From NCBI RefSeq assembly GCF_022761015.1, contig NZ_JAKWJQ010000002.1, forward strand, positions 248,001-312,000: 64,000 nt of DNA, given 5' to 3'. Positions 45,277 to 63,312 of this stretch are shown piece by piece. The position numbers and the translations under genes are program-made. Source of the DNA: Humibacter sp. RRB41. GTDB taxonomy: Bacteria; Actinomycetota; Actinomycetes; Actinomycetales; Microbacteriaceae. A model generated the notes under the pieces. That model was not told the origin of the DNA. It searched no databases and saw nothing but the letters and a program-made list of their open reading frames with translations. Numbering within the stretch: position 1 is the first letter of the stretch; each line of letters begins with the position of its first letter.

Positions 45277-48200
45277 TCAGGCGGCCGCAGGCACCTCGCC
45301 CTGTGAGGTGTCGCGGGCGGATGCGCCGGGTCCGCCGAGCAAGATCAGCCGGTCCGCGACGCGCGCCTCCTCGGCGTCGTGCGTGACGAGCACCGTGACG
45401 GCGTCGGTCAGGGCGCCGCGCAGGTCGGCCATCAGCTCTGCCGACGCCTGTTCGTCGAGTTGCGCCGTCGGCTCGTCGATGAGCACGACGTCCCCTCGGG
45501 TCAGCAGCGTCCGTGCGACGGCGAGGCGCTGGCGCTGGCCGCCCGACAGCCTGCTACCCCCGGGACCGATCCTGGTGTCGAGGCCGTCGGGCAGTGTTGC
45601 GACGAGAGGGGCGAGTCCGACGCGGGCGAGCGCCTCGGTCATCTCGGTGTCGGTCGGCCGATCGTCACGACCTCGCGCGATGGCGAGGTTCGCACGCAGG
45701 GTGGAGTCGAACAGGTGGCCGTCTTGCGGGCACCACGCCACGCGGGTGCGGAGGGAGTGGGGCGAGACGGTGGAGGCATCCATCGCCTCGTTCTCGCTGA
45801 CGAGTCGATAGCTGCCTTCGCCGGGATCGATGAACCGCAGAAGCAGCGCCAGCAGGGTCGATTTGCCGGAACCGCTTGGCCCGGTCACCGCGAGCCACTG
45901 CCCCTTGCCGACCGCGGCGGAGACGTGGTCGAAGACGGCGTGGTCGGTACCGTCGTAGCTGAATGCGACGTCGTCGAGCCCGATGCCATCGATGGTCGGA
46001 GCGCGGCCGGATGCCTGGGCGTGTTCAGCAGCGGATGCCGCCGATGCCTCGGCGACCGTCCCCAGCACCTCGGCGAGTGCGAGTGCCTTCGCCGCGGCCG
46101 CGACACCGTCGGTGAACGGCTCGATCAGAGCCAACGGAACGAGGGCGAGTACGGCGACCGCATCGGGGCGGAGTGTGCCGGATGCCACGGTCGCGGCCAC
46201 CAGCGGCAGCACCGTGACGGCGGTGGCACAGCACGCCAGCACCACGAGCGCCGAGGCTGCGCCCTCGACGAAGGCGGCGCGTCGTTCGCTCGCCGATGCC
46301 GCCAGATCGGCGCGCCGGATGCGCGCGAGAACACCGCCCGCCGCCCGAGGCGTGAGGTCATCACGGGCGATCAGCAGACCGGTGAACGCGGTCAGCACGG
46401 CACTTCGGGCGACCTCGCCACGACGAGCGGCGATCCGTCCGCCGACGGCGGCGACCGCCGGTGCCACGAGCAGCGCGATCGCGCCGCATCCGCCGATGAG
46501 AGCCGCTGCGGGCGGAAAGATCAGCCAGAGCGTCACGAGTGCGCCGACGAAGACGACGGCAGCCGTGATCGCCGGCTGTACGACCCTGGGCATCAGATCC
46601 CGAACCCGATCGGCGGCACCCACCAGCGTGCGCAGGGTGTTCGCCGGCGAGAGCGCCGACCGGCCGGCCGGTCCCTTCGCCGCAAGTCCTCGCCAGAGGC
46701 GCAGTCTGAGCCCCGTGACCGCGCGAAGCACAGCGTCATGGGTCAGCAGCCGCTCCGCGTACCGCAGCGCCGAGCGACCGATGCCGAAGAACCGCACGCC
46801 GACGATCGCCACGAGCAGATACATGATGGCGGGCTCCTGGCTGGCACGCACGATGAGCCACCCGGAGACCGCGGTGAGCGCGACGGCGAACGCGGTCGAG
46901 AGAATGCCGACCGACACGGCGGCGACCATGCGCCAACGGACCGGCCGAAGGAATGCGGCGAGTTCGGCGATGGCCCGTCTTCCCGTCGGCCGCCCGCGAT
47001 GCGCGGCAGACTCGGCGGCCGCCGCCAGGCGGAGTGGAGCGGATGTCGTCTCCTCCTCGCCGTCCGTCTCACATCGTGCAGGCAACGGCCTCCGCGAACG
47101 TGTCGATGCGCCGACGGCGACGACTTCGTCTGCGAGATCCTGCAACGCCGGGTCGTGGGACGCCAGTACGACGGTCGCTCTCCCCCGCAACTCCGCGATC
47201 TCGCGGCGAACGTGCACAGCGGAGCCGGGGTCGAGATGCGCGGTCGGCTCGTCGAGGAGCACGAGAGTCGCCCCGGTGTCGACGGCGGCGAGCACTCGGG
47301 TGAACGCGAGCCGACGCGCTTCCCCCGGACTGAGCTCGTCGGGGGAACGGCCGGCGAGAACGGCGAGACCGACGCGGCCGAGCAGCGCGACGGCATCCAC
47401 CTCGGGTGCGCCGTAGAGCGCGACCTCGTCGGCGAGTGTGGCGGACGAGAAGCGCGGATGCTGCGGCATCCAGACTGTCGTATCGGACGGCGGCAGCAGA
47501 AGCTCGCCCGACACCGTCGCGTCGGGTTCGAGCAGGGCGCCGCGACAGGCGAGCACCGACAGCACCGTCGACTTTCCGGTACCGCTGGCGCCGGAGAGCA
47601 GCGTGATGCGATGCGGCTTCGCCGTGAACGAGAGCGACCTCACGGCGGTTTCGTTGCGCTGTCGATACCTGACCGAGAGGTCGTGCACGACGAGTGTCGA
47701 CGAGGTGAGCGCCGTCACCGCATTCCGCAACGGCGTGCGCTCGAACACGGCACGCACCCGACGAAGAGCCTCGCGCCCCGTGTCGCTGGCATGGAACGCG
47801 GCACCGATCTCGCGGATCGGGGCGTAGCACTCCGGCGCGAGAATGAGAGCGACGAGACCTGCCTCGAGTGTGAGCTGGCCGTTCAGAAGCCGGATGCCGA
47901 CCAGCACCGCCACGATGGCGACGGAGATCGTGGAGAGCAGGTCGAGTGCCAGGGCGGACAGGAACGCGGTGCGCAGCGCCGTCATGCTCCGTACCCGGTG
48001 GTCGTCCGAGATGTCGGCCAGTGCGCGCGCCTGCTCCCTGTCCCGTCCGAGACCGACCAGCACGGGGAGGCCGCAGGCGAGTTCGACGAGATGGTCCGAC
48101 AGTCGGCCGAGCGCATCGAGGGAGGCTGCGACCCTGTCCCTGGTGTGCATGCCGATGAGCGCCATGAACAACGGCACCAACGGCACCGTGATGACGATGA

Positions 48201-48672
48201 CGAGTGCACTGACCCAGTCGGCCGCAAGGATGCGCGCCCCGACCAGCAGCGGAACGGTCGCCGCCGTCACCAACGAGGGCAGGTACGACGTGTAGTAGGC
48301 ATCCAGATCGTCGAGTCCGGTCGTCACCACTGTCGTCTCCGCGCCGACTCCTTCGCCGGAACGGTCGAGCATGGCGCGAGCTGCTCGTTCGCGCAGGTTC
48401 CGTTTCACGCCGGCTGCGGTGGACTGCGACGCCACTCGCAGTCCCCAGAGCGACACGGCGCGAACGAGCGCGCCCGCGAGTCCTTCGATGACGGGAATCG
48501 CGACGTCGCCGTGCCCGATCACGGCGACGATGCCGGCCGCCAGCGCGTCGGCCACCAGCACGATGCCGAGGGCCTTGAGGGCTCCGAGCAGGCCGAGCAG
48601 AAGCATCCGCTTGGTGCCGACCTCGGCGAGGCCGTCGGCCGGCGACGTGCGGGGCGTTGTCGTCGTCGTCAT
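45277..48672 (-). CDS. cydDC: CydDC, fused thiol-reductant ABC exporter for cytochrome bd assembly
   Basis: A 1131-residue fusion of CydD (about 1-530) and CydC (about 566-1131), each with a six-helix membrane domain and an ATPase. The CydD half has Walker A GASGTGKS (361-368) and a degenerate signature LSPGE (447-451). The CydC half has GPSGSGKS (931-938) and LSGGQ (1042-1046). CydDC exports glutathione or cysteine-type thiols and is needed to mature cytochrome bd. E. coli has two genes; a fused form is known in Actinobacteria. ATG 48672 overlaps the cydB stop. Confidence 0.95.
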   Translation of the reverse strand: MTTTTTPRTSPADGLAEVGTKRMLLLGLLGALKALGIVLVADALAAGIVAVIGHGDVAIPVIEGLAGALVRAVSLWGLRVASQSTAAGVKRNLRERAARAMLDRSGEGVGAETTVVTTGLDDLDAYYTSYLPSLVTAATVPLLVGARILAADWVSALVIVITVPLVPLFMALIGMHTRDRVAASLDALGRLSDHLVELACGLPVLVGLGRDREQARALADISDDHRVRSMTALRTAFLSALALDLLSTISVAIVAVLVGIRLLNGQLTLEAGLVALILAPECYAPIREIGAAFHASDTGREALRRVRAVFERTPLRNAVTALTSSTLVVHDLSVRYRQRNETAVRSLSFTAKPHRITLLSGASGTGKSTVLSVLACRGALLEPDATVSGELLLPPSDTTVWMPQHPRFSSATLADEVALYGAPEVDAVALLGRVGLAVLAGRSPDELSPGEARRLAFTRVLAAVDTGATLVLLDEPTAHLDPGSAVHVRREIAELRGRATVVLASHDPALQDLADEVVAVGASTRSRRPLPARCETDGEEETTSAPLRLAAAAESAAHRGRPTGRRAIAELAAFLRPVRWRMVAAVSVGILSTAFAVALTAVSGWLIVRASQEPAIMYLLVAIVGVRFFGIGRSALRYAERLLTHDAVLRAVTGLRLRLWRGLAAKGPAGRSALSPANTLRTLVGAADRVRDLMPRVVQPAITAAVVFVGALVTLWLIFPPAAALIGGCGAIALLVAPAVAAVGGRIAARRGEVARSAVLTAFTGLLIARDDLTPRAAGGVLARIRRADLAASASERRAAFVEGAASALVVLACCATAVTVLPLVAATVASGTLRPDAVAVLALVPLALIEPFTDGVAAAAKALALAEVLGTVAEASAASAAEHAQASGRAPTIDGIGLDDVAFSYDGTDHAVFDHVSAAVGKGQWLAVTGPSGSGKSTLLALLLRFIDPGEGSYRLVSENEAMDASTVSPHSLRTRVAWCPQDGHLFDSTLRANLAIARGRDDRPTDTEMTEALARVGLAPLVATLPDGLDTRIGPGGSRLSGGQRQRLAVARTLLTRGDVVLIDEPTAQLDEQASAELMADLRGALTDAVTVLVTHDAEEARVADRLILLGGPGASARDTSQGEVPAAA

Positions 48673-49700
48673 CGTGTCTTCAGCGCTGCGGTCACGGGCT
48701 TGGCCTGCGGGATGCTCGCGCCGCTGATGCGCTTGCGGAACACCCAGTAGGTCCAGCCCTGGTAGGCGAGCACGAGCGGTATTCCGAACGCGGCCACCAC
48801 GCTCATCACCCCGAGCGTGTACGGCGAACTCGAGGCGTTGGCGACGGTGAGGTCGTACGTGTCGCTGATCGTGGACGGGAGCACGTTCGGGAAGGCGTTC
48901 GCGAAGATCGACGCCGTGCCCAGCAGCAGGAAGAGCGCCATGCCGGCGAACGCCCTGCCCTCACTCCTGCGCCGCGCCGAAAGCCAGGCGAAGACGGCGG
49001 CGGCCACCGCCGTCGTGACAAGGATCCAGGTATATGACTTGCCGTTCATGAGCTGCACTCCGAAAACCCACACCGCGATCGGGAGCAGTAGCACGGGCAT
49101 CCACCGAACGGCGAAGCGTCCACTGCGGTCTCGGACGTCGCCTTCGGTCTTGAGCGCGAGAAAGGTCGCGGAGTGCGCGAGACAGAACCCTACGACCGCA
49201 AGGCCGCCGATGACGGCCCAACCATTGAACCAGTCGAACGGTCCGCCCGTCCCGTCGCCGTTCGCGTTGATCGGCAGGCCGGTCGTCGTGAGCGCCAGAG
49301 TCGCGCCGACGCCGAACGCCGCGACCGACGAGCCGACCCCCAAGGCGATGTCCCAGACGCGCGTCCACCGCGCGGTCGACCCCTTGCCGCGGTATTCGAT
49401 GGCGACGGCACGGAAGATGAGGCTGAGCAGCACGACGACGAGCGGCACGTACAGAGTGGAGAACAGCGATGCATACCAGAACGGGAATGCAGCGAAGGTC
49501 GCGCCGGCAGCCGTGATCAGCCACACCTCGTTGCCGTCCCAGACCGGGCCGATCGTGTTGAGCATGACGCGGCGGTCGGTCTCGCTTCGCGCCGACACCA
49601 GCACGTGCATGCCGACACCGAGGTCGAATCCCTCGAGGAACAGATAGCCGGTCCACAACACGGCGATCAGAATGAACCAGAGGGTGGGAAGGAAGTCCAT
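48669..49700 (-). CDS. cydB: CydB, cytochrome bd ubiquinol/menaquinol oxidase subunit II
   Basis: A 343-residue integral membrane subunit with about eight to nine hydrophobic segments. The early motif L-W-F-I-L-I-A-V-L-W-T-G-Y-L-F-L-E-G-F-D and WDGNEVWLITAAGATFAAFP are hallmarks of CydB. It forms the oxidase with CydA. It starts 15 bp after cydA and overlaps cydDC by four bases. The oxidase works at low oxygen without pumping protons. Confidence 0.97.
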   Translation of the reverse strand: MDFLPTLWFILIAVLWTGYLFLEGFDLGVGMHVLVSARSETDRRVMLNTIGPVWDGNEVWLITAAGATFAAFPFWYASLFSTLYVPLVVVLLSLIFRAVAIEYRGKGSTARWTRVWDIALGVGSSVAAFGVGATLALTTTGLPINANGDGTGGPFDWFNGWAVIGGLAVVGFCLAHSATFLALKTEGDVRDRSGRFAVRWMPVLLLPIAVWVFGVQLMNGKSYTWILVTTAVAAAVFAWLSARRRSEGRAFAGMALFLLLGTASIFANAFPNVLPSTISDTYDLTVANASSSPYTLGVMSVVAAFGIPLVLAYQGWTYWVFRKRISGASIPQAKPVTAALKTR

Positions 49701-49715
49701 GATCGGTCCTCTCGA

Positions 49716-51299
49716 CTAGTAGGCGAACGCGAGCACGTCGTCGTCAGACGGGGCATCCGGATCCTTCGGCTTCTCGCCGAGCTCGGGGATGGCGCCGGCC
49801 ACTCCGCTGCGGATGTACTTCACGAGCAGGCGAACTTCCACGACCATGAGCACGGCGTAGACAGCCGTGAGCGAGATGAGCGAGAACAGGATCTCCCCGA
49901 AGCTCACCCCCGGTGAGACAGCAGCCGCCGTGAACATGAAGACGCCGTCGATGCCCCCTGGCGTCGGATTCGGTGCAACGACGAACGGTTGTCGGCCCAT
50001 CTCGGTGAAGATCCACCCAGCCGAGTTCGCGGCGAACGGCGACAGGATGCCCGCGACCGCCAGCCACATCACCCAGCGCGATCGCGGCACCGTCCCCTTT
50101 CGCGTCAGCCAGAGTGCAACGGCCGCGGCGAAGGCCGCCAGCGCGCCGAACAGGATCATCAACCGGAAGCCCCAGTACGTGACAGCCATGATCGGCACGT
50201 ACGTGATCTTCTCCCCCGCCCGTGAGCCGTACAGGGGATTGTCGGGCAGGTTCGTCCCGTACTTCTTCTGATACTGCGGCACGAGTTCGTTGACGCCCTT
50301 GACGGGCTCGTTGAAGTCGCCGTTGGCGAGGAACCCGAGCACGCCGGGAATCTCGATCACGTTGACGACCCCCTTGCAGTCCTTCGAGCCGATGTCGCCG
50401 AACGCGAGCACGGAGAAGCTGGTGCCTGTGTGGCAGGCGGCCTCGGCCGACGCCATCTTCATCGGCTGCTGCACGAACATCAGCCTGGCCTGCGCGTCAC
50501 CGGTGATCGCGACACCGCCGAACGCGATGATCGCGGTCACAGCGCCGATGCGCAGCGACGTGATCCACACCTTGTGGTCGAGCTTGTCGCGACCTCGGAT
50601 GCTCACTGCTTCGCCCGCGATCACGCGCTTGTCCCATCCGATCGTGTCGATGCCGTCCCTGCGCCGCCGCCAGAGGTGGTACCACGCGACGCCGAGCAGC
50701 AGCGCACCACCGACGGAGAACGCGCCGAAGATCGTGTGGGTGAACGCGGCGACCGCGGTGTTGTTGCCGAGCACGGCCCAGACATCCGTCATCACGGGCC
50801 TGCCGTCAGTGAGTTTCACGCCGACGGGATGCTGCATCCACGAGTTCGCGGCGATGATGAAGTACGCCGAGACGACGGAGCCGGCGACGGCGAGCCACAG
50901 GCACGCGAGATGGATGCGCTTGGGCAGCTTGCCCCAGCCGAAGATCCACAGTCCGAGGAAGGTCGACTCCACGAAGAACGCCAGCAGAGCCTCCATAGCC
51001 AGCGGAGCACCGAACACGTCGCCGACGAACCGGCTGTACTCGCTCCACGCCAGACCGAACTGGAACTCCTGGACGATGCCGGTGGCGACGCCCATGATGA
51101 AGTTGATCAGATAGATCTTTCCCCAGAACTTGGTCATGCGGTAATAGCGCTCGTTGCCGGTGCGGTTCCACATGGTCTGCATGAGCGCGACGAGCGGGCC
51201 GAGGCCGATCGTCATCGGCACCATCCAGAAGTGATAGACGGTGGTGATGCCGAACTGCCAGCGGGCGATGAGCAGCGGATCCAGGTCGGCCGGGTGCAC
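49716..51299 (-). CDS. cydA: CydA, cytochrome bd oxidase subunit I
   Basis: A 527-residue heme-bearing subunit. The N-terminal ARWQFGITTVYHFWMVP holds the axial histidine for the high-spin heme, and the AAFTHTIFGAFSVG histidine and the later methionine region serve the low-spin heme. The conserved TEMGRQPFVV (GRQPW-type) motif is near the C-terminus. The quinol loop is of the short type. GTG 51299 follows GGAGG by four bases; the TTG further up is less likely. It is the promoter-proximal gene of the cyd run and faces blaI across an array of palindromes. Confidence 0.96.
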   Translation of the reverse strand: MHPADLDPLLIARWQFGITTVYHFWMVPMTIGLGPLVALMQTMWNRTGNERYYRMTKFWGKIYLINFIMGVATGIVQEFQFGLAWSEYSRFVGDVFGAPLAMEALLAFFVESTFLGLWIFGWGKLPKRIHLACLWLAVAGSVVSAYFIIAANSWMQHPVGVKLTDGRPVMTDVWAVLGNNTAVAAFTHTIFGAFSVGGALLLGVAWYHLWRRRRDGIDTIGWDKRVIAGEAVSIRGRDKLDHKVWITSLRIGAVTAIIAFGGVAITGDAQARLMFVQQPMKMASAEAACHTGTSFSVLAFGDIGSKDCKGVVNVIEIPGVLGFLANGDFNEPVKGVNELVPQYQKKYGTNLPDNPLYGSRAGEKITYVPIMAVTYWGFRLMILFGALAAFAAAVALWLTRKGTVPRSRWVMWLAVAGILSPFAANSAGWIFTEMGRQPFVVAPNPTPGGIDGVFMFTAAAVSPGVSFGEILFSLISLTAVYAVLMVVEVRLLVKYIRSGVAGAIPELGEKPKDPDAPSDDDVLAFAY

Positions 51300-51319
51300 G
51301 GTGCCTCCGATTCGAGCGG

Positions 51320-51336
51320 TTCTACGCAACGTAGAA
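51320..51336. promoter_or_regulatory. BlaI-type operator 1 (cydA-proximal)
   Basis: A 17-bp palindrome TTCTAC-GCAAC-GTAGAA, perfect in its outer six bases and extended to seven by the flanking G and C. On the minus strand it contains TAGAAC (51324-51319), a plausible -10 for cydA that would start RNA about 13 bases before the GTG, upstream of the GGAGG ribosome site. The TAC...GTA core fits operators of the BlaI/MecI family. Confidence 0.75.
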
Positions 51337-51353
51337 TTCTACGTGCTGTAGAA
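51337..51353. promoter_or_regulatory. BlaI-type operator 2 (central)
   Basis: A second 17-bp copy TTCTAC-GTGCT-GTAGAA, directly abutting operator 1 at 51336/51337. The junction GTAGAATTCTAC is itself a perfect 12-bp palindrome. The direct abutment suggests cooperative binding of repressor dimers. Confidence 0.75.
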
Positions 51354-51378
51354 AGGTCTACCACCGATGCGCGAACCT

Positions 51379-51395
51379 TTCTACACGAGGTAGAA
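51379..51395. promoter_or_regulatory. BlaI-type operator 3 overlapping the blaI -10
   Basis: A third copy TTCTAC-ACGAG-GTAGAA. It overlaps TAGAAT (51391-51396), a good -10 hexamer located six bases before the blaI ATG at 51403, which would give a leaderless blaI mRNA. Binding here would block the repressor's own promoter. Confidence 0.75.
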
Positions 51396-51402
51396 TCGAG
51401 GC

Positions 51403-51777
51403 ATGGCGACGCGAACACTGACTCATCTCGGGGATCTCGAGCGCGCAGTCATGGATGTCATGTGGGACTCCCCCGACCCGCTCACGGCCACCGGCTTGCG
51501 CGACGCGCTGAACGCATCCGGAAGCCAGGGCAAGGACCTCGCCATCACCACCGTGATGACGGTGCTCTCCCGTCTGGAGGCCAAGAACTTCGTGGTGCGC
51601 GATCGGGATGCCCGTCCGCACCTGTACAGCGCAGCCATGACGCGCGAGGACCACGTGGCCGAGCTGATGCACGAGGTGCTCGGGTCGGCTTCGGATCGAG
51701 ACGCCGTGCTCGCCAGGTTCGTCGGCCAGGTCACTCAACACGACGCAGAGCGACTTCGCAGGTTGCTGGACTCCTGA
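51403..51777 (+). CDS. blaI: BlaI/MecI/CopY-family transcriptional repressor
   Basis: A 124-residue repressor. It has an N-terminal winged helix (GDLERAVMDVMWDSPDPLTATGLRDAL, then TVMTVLSRLEAKNFVVRDRDARPHLYSA) and a C-terminal dimerisation helix bundle. Such repressors bind TAC/GTA palindromes and are inactivated by proteolysis or ligand. It is followed five bases later by an M56 membrane protease gene, the usual BlaI-BlaR1 pairing. Three matching palindromes in front of it and facing cydA suggest control of the cyd operon. No beta-lactamase or PBP is nearby. Confidence 0.92.
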   Translation: MATRTLTHLGDLERAVMDVMWDSPDPLTATGLRDALNASGSQGKDLAITTVMTVLSRLEAKNFVVRDRDARPHLYSAAMTREDHVAELMHEVLGSASDRDAVLARFVGQVTQHDAERLRRLLDS

Positions 51778-51782
51778 CGATC

Positions 51783-52745
51783 ATGCTCGCCGTCGCTGCC
51801 GCACTCGCGCTGCTCGCCGTCGCCCTGGCGTGGCCGGTTCCGGTTGCGCTCGCGAGGGCGAGCTGGCCGAGGCGGATGCCAGGAGCTGCGCTCGTGCTCT
51901 GGCAAGCGGTCGCCCTCGCCGGCGGCCTCTCGATGATCGGCTCCCTTCTCGTCTTCGGCCTCATGCCGTTCGGCGACGACCTGCTACGAGCGGCAGGAGC
52001 TTTCACCGCAGACCTGTTCGCTGGACGGCTCCCGCCGGAGGCGAACTTCCCGGAGATGTTCGCGCTGGCCGGTGCCGTGCTTCTCGGCGTTCACCTGCTG
52101 CTCAACCTGGTGCGAACGGCATGGCGGGCCGAGCGCCAGCGCCGTCACCACGCGCAACTCCTGCGGTTGCTCTCGGATCCGTTGCCGGAGCGTCCAGGAA
52201 CGCGGGTGATCGACCACGCCGCCCCCGTCGCCTACTGCCTGCCCGGCGTGCCGAGAGCAGTGACCGTGCTCTCCGCCGGCCTGTTGGACCTGCTCTCCGA
52301 TGACGAGCTCGCCGCGGTCGTCGCGCACGAGCGTGCGCATGTGCAGCAGCACCATCACGTGCTGCTGGTGGCGTTCAGCGCCTGGCGCAGCGCCCTGCCG
52401 TGGTTTCCGATAGCGACGCGCGCACATGACGCGGTCGGGCTGCTTGTCGAGCTGCTGGCGGATGATCAGGCAAGACGCACCGTGTCGGAACGTCACCTCT
52501 CCCGTGCCGTCGCCCGAGTGGCACTGGCGACGTCGGCATCTCGTGGCGCGGCCTCCGACGCGGCTCCGGCTCTGGGGATCGCGACGATCCCTCCTACCGC
52601 TGGTGAGTGGGCGGATGCCCGCGTCACCCGCCTCACCGACGCTACGGCGCCTGCGGCCCCCGCGCTGCGCCTCACGGTGCTGGCCAGCGCCGTCGCACTC
52701 GTGGCGGTGCCGACGCTGATGCTCCTGAGCCCTGTCGTCCGCTAG
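51783..52745 (+). CDS. M56-family (BlaR1/MecR1-like) membrane metalloprotease
   Basis: A 320-residue membrane protein with hydrophobic segments near 1-25, 35-60, 80-105 and 290-315. The zinc motif H-E-R-A-H (HExxH) is in VVAHERAHVQQHHH. It lacks the C-terminal penicillin-binding sensor of true BlaR1, so beta-lactam is not the expected signal. By analogy it would cleave, directly or not, the BlaI repressor encoded five bases upstream. ATG 51783 is the first start after blaI. Confidence 0.9.
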   Translation: MLAVAAALALLAVALAWPVPVALARASWPRRMPGAALVLWQAVALAGGLSMIGSLLVFGLMPFGDDLLRAAGAFTADLFAGRLPPEANFPEMFALAGAVLLGVHLLLNLVRTAWRAERQRRHHAQLLRLLSDPLPERPGTRVIDHAAPVAYCLPGVPRAVTVLSAGLLDLLSDDELAAVVAHERAHVQQHHHVLLVAFSAWRSALPWFPIATRAHDAVGLLVELLADDQARRTVSERHLSRAVARVALATSASRGAASDAAPALGIATIPPTAGEWADARVTRLTDATAPAAPALRLTVLASAVALVAVPTLMLLSPVVR

Positions 52746-61620: not shown

Positions 61621-63312
61621 ATGTTGCATCCCTGGAAGTCGGTTCGCTCATCGAGTGGACATTCCCGACGACGTGGAGCCGCGGCTGTCGCGGCGGCCGC
61701 CGCACTCGCACTGGGCCTCACCCTCGTCGGTGCGAGTGGGGCGCAGGCGTTCCCTGGCGGCGGCGCGGGGTGGCATGGTGGGCATGACTCGCAGCTGACG
61801 CCGCGCACGGAGTTCACGATGGCGCCCGACGGATCGAGTGGCGCGACGCAGGGCGGCGACGGCATCCCGAACATCGACGTGGTCAAGAAGACGATCGCGA
61901 CCTACTACGGCGACCCGGGTACGGGCATCTCGAACAAGCAGAGTTCGCCGTACATCAGTCAAATGAACGGGATCATCGCCAAGGCGACTGCCCAGTTGAA
62001 GCCCGCCTACGACGAGGCGATCGCGAAGGGTGAGAAGCCGGCGATCGTGTTCGACGCCGACGACACCACACTGTGGACGTACGACATGGAAGTCGGCGAC
62101 ATGCACTTCAATTACAGCCCGGCGGAACAGGATGTCTGGGTGCAGGGCGAGAAGTTCCCAGCTGTCCCGGCAATGGTCGGCTTCGTCAACACGGCGTCCG
62201 CGATGGGCTACACGGTGTTCGGCCTGACCGGTCGCAACGACGACCAGAAGGCGGCGACGCTCGAGAACCTGAAGAACGACGGCTACTCCGCGTTCACGTC
62301 AGACGACTTCTACACGAAGTGGACGGGCAAGGGAGCCTCGCAGCAGCCGTCGTACATCACGTGCGCGACGTCGAGCTGCACGACAGTGGAGTACAAGGCG
62401 CTGACACGCAAGCACATCGAGAAGGACCTCGGCTACACGATCACCCTCAACGCGGGCGACCAGTGGTCGGACCTGCAGGGCGGCTTCGCCGACAGAATCC
62501 TGAAGCTGCCGAACCCGACGTATTACCTGCCATCCCCTGATCTGCCAGGCGTGTCCGAGCCGAAGCTGGCACCGCGCACGCACTTCACGATGAAGGCCGA
62601 CGGCACGAGCGGTGCGACGCAGGGCGGTGACGGCATTCCGAACATCGATTCCGTGAAGTCGACGATCGCCACCTACTACGGCGACCCTGGCACCGGCATC
62701 TCGAACAAGCAGAGCTCGCCCTACATCAGCGAGATGAACCGCATCGCGGCCGCCAAGCTGCCGACGATCGCAGCCCAGTGCCGCATCGAGAAGATGCTGC
62801 ACAAGAATCCTGCCGTCGTGTTCGACGCTGACGACACCACGTTGTGGACCTACGACATGGAGGTCGGCGACATGCACTTCAACTACAACCCGACCGAACA
62901 GGATGTCTGGGTGCAGGGAGAGAAGTTCCCAGCGACGCCGGCGATGGTGACCCTCGAGAAGGCCGTGCAGAAGTCCGGCTGCACCGTGATCGGCCTCACA
63001 GGCCGTAACGACGACCAGAAGAAGGCGACGCTGACCAACCTTGCGAACGTCGGCTACACCGGCTTCACGTCGGCGAACTACTACACGAAGTGGACGGGTG
63101 TCGGTGCGTCGCAGCAGCCGTCGTACATCCACTGCGCTGCGGCGAGCTGCACCACGATCGAGTACAAGTCGCAGACGAGGGCGCACGTCGAGTCGCGCTC
63201 AGGCGGCAGGTACGACGTCGTGGCGAACTTCGGCGACCAGTTCAGCGACCTGATCGGCGGTCACGCCGACCGCACGATCAAGCTGCCGAATCCCACGTAT
63301 TACCTTCCCTGA
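61621..63312 (+). CDS. Secreted HAD-family acid phosphatase with two tandem phosphatase domains
   Basis: A 563-residue exported protein. The N-terminus (RRRGAAAVAAAAALALGLTL, cleavage likely after AQA at 43) is a signal peptide, possibly twin-arginine. Two copies of a class B-like acid phosphatase domain follow, about 58-304 and 317-563. Each has the nucleophile motif FDADDTTLW (144 and 401), GLTGRNDDQK (201 and 458) and an acidic GDQ-(W/F)-SD motif (279 and 538). The halves are very similar over their whole length. ATG 61621 has GAGAGGTGG upstream. It probably releases phosphate outside the cell. Confidence 0.9.
   Translation: MLHPWKSVRSSSGHSRRRGAAAVAAAAALALGLTLVGASGAQAFPGGGAGWHGGHDSQLTPRTEFTMAPDGSSGATQGGDGIPNIDVVKKTIATYYGDPGTGISNKQSSPYISQMNGIIAKATAQLKPAYDEAIAKGEKPAIVFDADDTTLWTYDMEVGDMHFNYSPAEQDVWVQGEKFPAVPAMVGFVNTASAMGYTVFGLTGRNDDQKAATLENLKNDGYSAFTSDDFYTKWTGKGASQQPSYITCATSSCTTVEYKALTRKHIEKDLGYTITLNAGDQWSDLQGGFADRILKLPNPTYYLPSPDLPGVSEPKLAPRTHFTMKADGTSGATQGGDGIPNIDSVKSTIATYYGDPGTGISNKQSSPYISEMNRIAAAKLPTIAAQCRIEKMLHKNPAVVFDADDTTLWTYDMEVGDMHFNYNPTEQDVWVQGEKFPATPAMVTLEKAVQKSGCTVIGLTGRNDDQKKATLTNLANVGYTGFTSANYYTKWTGVGASQQPSYIHCAAASCTTIEYKSQTRAHVESRSGGRYDVVANFGDQFSDLIGGHADRTIKLPNPTYYLP

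Follow-up and report, generated by a model that had tools for sequence, protein, structure and literature searches.

A putative BlaI-type switch with a sensor-less BlaR1-like protease at the cytochrome bd locus of Humibacter sp. RRB41 and its relatives

Cytochrome bd supports bacterial survival of low oxygen, nitric oxide, cyanide and respiratory inhibitors, and a regulator of its synthesis is therefore of general interest. In the 64-kb stretch of Humibacter sp. RRB41 DNA analyzed here (the window), the cytochrome bd genes lie divergent from a pair of genes that resemble the BlaI repressor and the BlaR1 protease of beta-lactam resistance, which raises the question of whether such a pair controls bd and by what means. 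To our knowledge, pairs of BlaI and a sensor-less membrane protease have no established signal outside beta-lactam resistance. The reading that we consider likely, in which we infer binding, repression, cleavage and signal alike, is that BlaI represses cyd and itself and that the sensor-less protease relieves this repression by cleavage on respiratory failure.

On the minus strand, cydA (49716-51299) encodes cytochrome bd subunit I (527 aa; PF01654, 492.7 bits). Its probable start is GTG 51299, behind a GGAGG sequence (51308-51304) that is its likely ribosome-binding site. Also on this strand are cydB (48669-49700; subunit II, PF02322 and TIGR00203 over cut-off) and cydDC (45277-48672), a fused single ORF of 1131 aa with CydD at residues 24-520 and CydC at residues 572-1099 (TIGR02857 and TIGR02868 over cut-off). 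The plus strand carries the blaI-like repressor gene (51403-51777, 124 aa) and, directly after it, with a probable start at ATG 51783, a gene for a BlaR1-like integral membrane zinc protease (51783-52745, 320 aa) that has HERAH and ELLAD motifs and no sensor domain; coaE lies 3' of the protease gene on the other strand. The repressor matches PF03965 over residues 9-123 (77.7 bits versus a cut-off of 22.6), and its gene is the single Penicillinase_R match (E <= 0.001) in the whole genome. The nearest solved chain is 2g9w, which we take to be M. tuberculosis BlaI (Rv1846c). Elsewhere in the window, a 563-aa ORF (61621-63312, plus strand) appears by eye to consist of two tandem copies of one phosphatase-like domain.

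The three copies of the palindrome TTCTAC-N5-GTAGAA that the initial annotation had reported between cydA and blaI, the first two abutting, are all exact, with zero mismatches. Operator 1, TTCTACGCAACGTAGAA (51320-51336), lies 20 nt upstream of the cydA start, a position kept in two congeners; operator 2, TTCTACGTGCTGTAGAA (51337-51353), abuts it; and operator 3, TTCTACACGAGGTAGAA (51379-51395), ends 7 nt from the blaI ATG, so that a palindrome with TAC/GTA halves lies at blaI's own candidate promoter. The operators of BlaI and MecI follow a TAC/GTA rule, which the CTAC/GTAG core of the palindrome fits. No other exact copy exists in the 3.89-Mb genome, which is also free of exact copies of a reversed-pattern control. 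When up to 2 mismatches were allowed, the window had 6 palindromes, as against a mean of 0.25 and a maximum of 1 in shuffles. With one mismatch, 5 sites are found genome-wide and 7 for the control, so only the exact sites stand out; one-mismatch sites lie elsewhere in the genome at C1:1154020 and C8:312131. Since 62 family genomes without a BlaI match hold only 2 exact copies in total, three copies within 76 bp are not a chance occurrence, an explanation that is ruled out by the shuffles, the genome scan, the reversed control and the genomes without BlaI taken together. A relaxed search of the same genome (TCTAC-N5-GTAGA) gave one extra site, at C11:128044 inside a predicted ORF, and the control gave 3. 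No regulon beyond the locus was thus found in the window's own genome, where there is no further exact site and the relaxed search yields fewer sites than its control; for lack of a further exact site, the switch in this genome looks dedicated to cyd.

The operators coincide with candidate promoters for both transcription units. For cydA, the initial annotation had proposed a -10 element TAGAAC (51324 to 51319) overlapped by operator 1, but the last base of this element varies among three congeners, and it was dropped as not conserved. The sequence TAGAAT on the minus strand at the junction of operators 2 and 1 (51341 to 51336, 36 nt before the cydA GTG) is invariant in the three species and is therefore the better candidate. 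On the blaI side, the coordinates previously given were found to agree: a candidate -10 element TAGAAT (51391-51396, plus strand) ends 6 nt before ATG 51403, and five of its six bases are covered by operator 3. A spacing of about 6 nt between -10 element and ATG is that expected of a leaderless actinobacterial promoter. This layout of blaI is common to the two congeners, yet in the wider set, where the start codon was chosen by script, it was seen at 11 of 135 loci. Both TAGAAT elements, the three operators and their order are kept in the two congeners available. BlaI bound to these operators would block the candidate promoters of cydA and blaI alike.

If BlaI reads these palindromes, the two should occur in the same genomes. 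A set of 150 genomes of the family was examined, in which a search with the window protein gave a BlaI match in 88 (called close at 100 bits or more) and cydA was present in 114. Among genomes with cydA, an exact palindrome was found in 55 of 59 with a close BlaI, in 4 of 21 with a weak one and in 0 of 34 with no BlaI match; among those lacking cydA, the corresponding figures are 1/1, 5/7 and 2/28. For 55/59 versus 0/34, Fisher's test gives a p of 2.6e-21 that is uncorrected for relatedness, and because the genomes are related such p values are too small. From these cross-counts it appears that the palindrome follows blaI rather than cydA. They bear directly on whether some other transcription factor binds the palindromes, with BlaI unrelated to them. 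Such an explanation draws on the fact that BlaI binding is itself something that we infer; the presence of the palindrome nevertheless tracks blaI and not cydA, its core fits the rule for BlaI/MecI operators, and several of the different repeats seen in other families (described below) also hold TAC/GTA halves. We regard it as the least probable of the explanations considered here.

The gene order is conserved along with the palindrome. It should be noted that similarity to the window BlaI was the search criterion for these loci, and that such a search favours conserved gene order. In the 60 close-BlaI loci, cydA is divergent from blaI in 58 and the protease gene is present in all 60, although further downstream in one of them (L027). 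Loss of the palindromes in relatives that keep the gene order had been named at the outset as an observation that would count against the proposal; what was found is an exact palindrome upstream of blaI in 56 of the 60 loci, and a palindrome with at most one mismatch in 58. One genome, G134, is a clear exception: its cydA adjoins blaI, yet no palindrome was found there within 2 mismatches. Another, G097, has cydA elsewhere and a 2-mismatch site only, and two genomes of one genus (G006 and G089) combine a weak BlaI and an adjacent cydA with 2-mismatch sites only. The best 80 of 579 loci from Microbacteriaceae and Micrococcaceae, a set that overlaps the 150 genomes so that the counts are not to be added, show a divergent cydA in 76/80, and an exact palindrome and the protease in 80/80 each. 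The layout is shared by both cydA types of the family, at about 75% and 45% identity. The comparative evidence strongly supports a regulatory link of the palindromes and BlaI with cyd. Conservation of this kind cannot tell repression from activation and is compatible with either.

The distribution of the operators within the intergenic region suggests that they serve both genes. Among the best 80 of 579 loci, 52 are divergent with an intergenic distance of 180 bp or more; exact operators lie in both halves of the intergenic region in 42 of the 52, and in 38 the cydA half contains exactly two of them and the blaI half one. Loci in which the genes have become separated are informative in the same respect. 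In Arthrobacter sp. AL12 (L119), where the predicted ORFs put cydA about 3.8 kb away, two operators are found with cydA and one with blaI. In genome G135 (L207), cydA is far from the sole, weak (about 42%) BlaI match on the same contig and has three operators upstream of it; in G072 (L091), cydA has two operators and lies on a different contig from the sole, likewise weak (about 42%) BlaI match, with no blaI in the 4 kb beyond these operators. In G106, a CydD-like ABC gene that is convergent with the blaI-protease pair has an operator of its own 8 nt before its predicted start. Taken together, these distributions and separations make the best case for cyd as a genuine target.

The same loci allow a simpler possibility to be weighed, namely that the palindromes serve blaI autoregulation only and that cydA is an innocent neighbour. 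Autoregulation would account for operator 3, which covers the blaI promoter candidate, and for three loci without a neighbouring cydA (L142, L148 and L165) in which the blaI-side operator is kept. It would not account for the operators of the separated cydA genes (L119, L091 and L207), nor for the two of three operators that fall in the cydA half in 38 of the 52 wide intergenic regions, and we consider it very unlikely. In the original proposal, cyd was the target of BlaI-type operators. The target has stood up well, through the operators retained by separated cydA genes and the 58/60 synteny, while binding by BlaI is still a prediction. We thus take control of cyd through these operators to be a well-supported reading of the sequences.

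The arrangement extends beyond the two families. Loci from the order (20), from family f2 (6) and from the class (20) were hand-picked to cover different families, and do not form a random sample. At order level, outside the two families, cydA is divergent in 17 of 20 loci, cydDC lies directly upstream on the same strand in 2 and no cyd gene is present in 1; an exact palindrome was found in 3/20, and in several of the remaining loci inverted repeats of another sequence, but with TAC/GTA halves, occur. The family f2 loci have a divergent cydA in 4 of 6 cases and an exact palindrome in all 6. At class level, cydA is divergent in 8/20 (two of them only 26-27% identical), downstream on the same strand in 1/20 and missing in 11/20. 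The association of cydA, blaI and protease is therefore broad, but not universal. The tandem operator was rejected as a phylum-wide code, as it occurs in 2 of 396 genomes (the window's own and one of the same order), a collection in which few genomes belong to this order. Two further observations concern loci in other families. Loci L175-L191 keep the layout of cydA, blaI and protease, and the exact palindrome is missing from most of the 17, and several have other inverted repeats; such changes could allow operators to be matched to changes in the recognition helix. L192 and L193, which come from a single family of the order, have blaI and the protease gene behind cydDC on the same strand and not divergent from cydA.

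When all exact sites in the 60 close-BlaI genomes were mapped, 111 of the 146 were located at the cyd/blaI region; the other 35 lie elsewhere and are spread over 19 of the genomes. By our own placement, made with no background rate for functional classes, respiration and energy genes lie behind 18 of the 35 extra sites. A flavohaemoglobin gene accounts for six of these (5 genomes, 3 genera); ctaC and atpB each have extra sites in 3 genomes of 2 genera, and pta in 3 genomes of 1 genus; and cydD, ppk2 and an inorganic pyrophosphatase gene have one each, that of the pyrophosphatase lying inside a predicted neighbouring ORF. The remaining 17 sites precede or fall within genes of other or unknown kind; among them are two sites at a MoCF/MFS pair, two at genes for a membrane protein without a Pfam match, two at adenosine deaminase genes, and sites at a MarR gene, a SOR/SNZ gene and others. 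Some of the start codons beside extra sites, and hence the distances, are uncertain, and the Pfam scan of these genes covered all loci except L036, L201, L202, L236, L238 and L246. These extra sites suggest that in some relatives the putative operators define a respiration and energy regulon.

Several individual sites may be recorded here. At L204:3875-3956, two exact palindromes separate a gene for an MFS transporter from one for a molybdopterin-binding MoCF protein. In two genomes of one genus (L039:263-1480 and L210:2535-3683), an exact palindrome is found 21-22 nt before the predicted start of a gene for a membrane protein of about 400 aa; this protein has no Pfam match, and its identification as NnrS was dropped for that reason. 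In two genomes of one genus (L241 and L242), an exact palindrome lies close to where an adenosine deaminase gene is predicted to begin, and a relaxed, non-exact site (L237:2414-2428) overlaps the region in which a UbiA-family gene resembling heme O synthase is predicted to start.

How might such a switch be opened? In the protease, the HExxH motif noted initially is present as H182, E183 and H186, and these residues, together with E223 and D227 of an ExxxD motif, are invariant in 58 of 58 aligned relatives. The M56 label that it had been given holds only in part: the PF05569 (M56) match of 24 bits is below the cut-off of 31, whereas PF01435 (M48) passes with 41.5 bits against 20.3; the motifs do fit BlaR1, and the fold is about as close to BlaR1 as to ZMPSTE24. 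An AlphaFold2 model (pLDDT 93.5, pTM 0.89) gave BlaR1 as top match in a fold comparison (8ext_A, residues 3-292; rmsd 5.2 over 215 residues), with a Z of 10.9 in a range (below about 13 for helical models) where the comparison tool may report a common arrangement only. ZMPSTE24, at Z 10.2, is tied with it, and the highest-ranking unrelated entry follows at Z 7.6 (77 residues). Foldseek gave a best E of 0.014, with nothing below 0.001, and for BlaR1 a probability of 1.00 with a TM-score of 0.34. The matches to Ste24 and ZMPSTE24 were taken to indicate no more than the wider M48/M56 fold. In our reading the protein is not to be filed as M56 or as BlaR1, and it would work like the protease half of BlaR1.

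In the model only one residue, the terminal residue 320, follows the last helix, and a profile search of the protein found no transpeptidase or penicillin-binding match. It is thus without a penicillin sensor, as the initial annotation had recognized. Judged by analogy to BlaR1, the extracytoplasmic part appears to be confined to about residues 60-95, so that the site of signal perception would have to be the membrane or its vicinity, or the cytosolic domain, unless the signal came from a partner. Phe is missing from a low-confidence loop of the window protein (about residues 261-270), and a BlaR1-like autocleavage bond is therefore not evident. C152 in the zinc domain is nearly invariant (53/58); the notion that it is special to cyd-linked proteases was abandoned, as 9 of 10 loci at class level that lack cydA have it too. 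The missing sensor is difficult to reconcile with an ordinary BlaR1-type switch for beta-lactams or envelope stress, of which bd would be a downstream target since antibiotics disturb respiration. The resemblance to BlaI and BlaR1 speaks for such a switch, but apart from the missing penicillin-binding domain, profile searches of the six proteins around the operators (CydDC, CydB, CydA, BlaI, the protease and CoaE) found no beta-lactamase, in agreement with the earlier claim that none is nearby, and 18 of the 35 extra operators precede respiratory or energy genes. We hold this explanation to be quite improbable.

In S. aureus, the genes for repressor and protease lie side by side and are divergent from the gene that they control. 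The available portions of PMC9834060 describe cleavage of the S. aureus BlaI and MecI repressors at N101-F102 and a BlaR1 active site formed by HExxH and ExxxD. The window locus is like the S. aureus BlaI-BlaR1 and MecI-MecR1 systems in having a repressor with a membrane zinc protease, palindromic operators, the same active-site motifs and the Phe of the cleavage site. It differs in that BlaR1 and MecR1 have a C-terminal penicillin-binding sensor, which the window protease lacks, and in its target, which is beta-lactamase or PBP2a in S. aureus and here would be cytochrome bd, with the operator TTCTAC-N5-GTAGAA. In a profile alignment, F106 of the window BlaI falls on the Phe at P1' of the S. 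aureus cleavage site; it is invariant (38 of 38), and the preceding P1 residue is Arg in 35 of the 38, not Asn. The bond R105-F106, in the dimerisation domain, is thus a candidate cleavage bond.

Repression of cyd and of blaI itself could also be relieved without proteolysis, if BlaI sensed a ligand or metal in the manner of CopY and the protease were otherwise employed. CopY/TcrY is in fact the best NCBIfam match of the repressor, far below cut-off (35.4 versus 121.95), and cleavage is for now a prediction. The window BlaI, however, has zero cysteines, which argues against direct thiol or CopY-type sensing by it, since the cysteine metal site of CopY is absent. Moreover, the constant presence of the protease beside close BlaI (60/60), its invariant active site (58/58) and the invariant F106 (38/38) speak against a relief in which the protease has no part. 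This alternative seems to us unlikely.

With relief by cleavage as the preferred reading, the switch would operate as follows. A dimer of the BlaI-family protein (51403-51777) would bind the three palindromes and block the minus-strand promoter of cydA(BDC) and its own plus-strand promoter. Failure of respiration through the main haem-copper oxidase, or low oxygen, would activate the neighbouring membrane protease, which would cut BlaI in the dimerisation domain, perhaps at R105-F106; the cytochrome bd operon and the blaI-protease operon would then be derepressed. On recovery, newly made BlaI would close the switch.

Partial precedents exist in mycobacteria. In the available text of PMC12565901, mycobacterial BlaI is reported to repress the ATP synthase operon: it binds the Rv1303-atp promoter in EMSA, and its overexpression is reported to lower the transcript of the M. 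smegmatis homologue; the link between BlaI and ATP synthase also appears in the accessible part of a review (PMC5874750). It has a possible counterpart in the palindrome before atpB in three relatives of Humibacter sp. RRB41. Control of cydABDC by M. tuberculosis BlaI does not figure in the available portions of PMC12565901, PMC5874750 and PMC7924339. The last of these, as far as its available text goes, reports higher levels of cyd and rv1303-1305 when a sigC mutant is in copper-poor medium; it discusses blaI in this connection and places cydB under SenX3/RegX3. According to the available text of PMC12140626, the main text of which does not name BlaI, loss of copper leaves M. tuberculosis without a working bcc:aa3 oxidase and leads to induction of cydA. 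Among the open PMC titles and beginnings of abstracts listed, we recognized no description of control of cyd by BlaI or M56 proteins; the BlaI regulon of Sala et al. 2009 may name cyd. The link of BlaI to ATP synthase and the general BlaI-BlaR1 design are partial precedents, and a BlaI-cyd switch would be a variant of the latter.

A further comparison is with Rex, which in Streptomyces represses the cyd, atp and nuo operons through palindromic operators (PMC5355995, available portions). This set overlaps in part with the genes behind the extra BlaI-type sites in relatives, but Rex reads NADH/NAD+ itself, whereas the window locus has a repressor-protease pair. No genome of the 150 in the family had a Rex match (NF003995) over cut-off, the window's own having no match at all, in a search for which 6 of 14 controls, none of them actinobacterial, were over cut-off; PF06971 was over cut-off in 2 of the 150, not including the window's own. 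Rex was therefore set aside as the missing cyd regulator in this genome, where neither model found it, the controls over cut-off being non-actinobacterial. Taken with the mycobacterial BlaI-ATP synthase link and the copper and cyd findings, the lack of a Rex over cut-off in the 150 genomes leads us to favour failure of haem-copper respiration (low oxygen, nitric oxide or lack of copper) as the signal, a tentative choice made from gene content that may well prove wrong.

A more general proposal, which we put forward as speculative and rather doubtful in its full extent, is that BlaI and a sensor-less BlaR1-like protease form a widespread actinobacterial switch for respiration and energy metabolism, taking the place of Rex in bacteria without it. 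From within the membrane, the protease itself would read failure of the haem-copper chain and cut BlaI, and cytochrome bd would thereby be turned on, along with flavohaemoglobin, ATP synthase, aa3 oxidase and acetate genes in some genera. In such a switch the protease would read the membrane, the quinone pool, nitric oxide or copper loading, with C152 and W40-Q41 in TM2 as candidate residues. If this were true, beta-lactam sensing would be a later add-on to an older respiratory switch. Apart from this wider proposal, the recurrence of the arrangement across many related soil bacteria makes it probable that the pair governs when they resort to backup respiration. A pair that is tied to one conserved target, with operators mapped in many species, makes it testable what a sensor-less BlaR1-like protease senses, and the locus likewise makes testable how bacteria without a detected Rex time their use of cytochrome bd.
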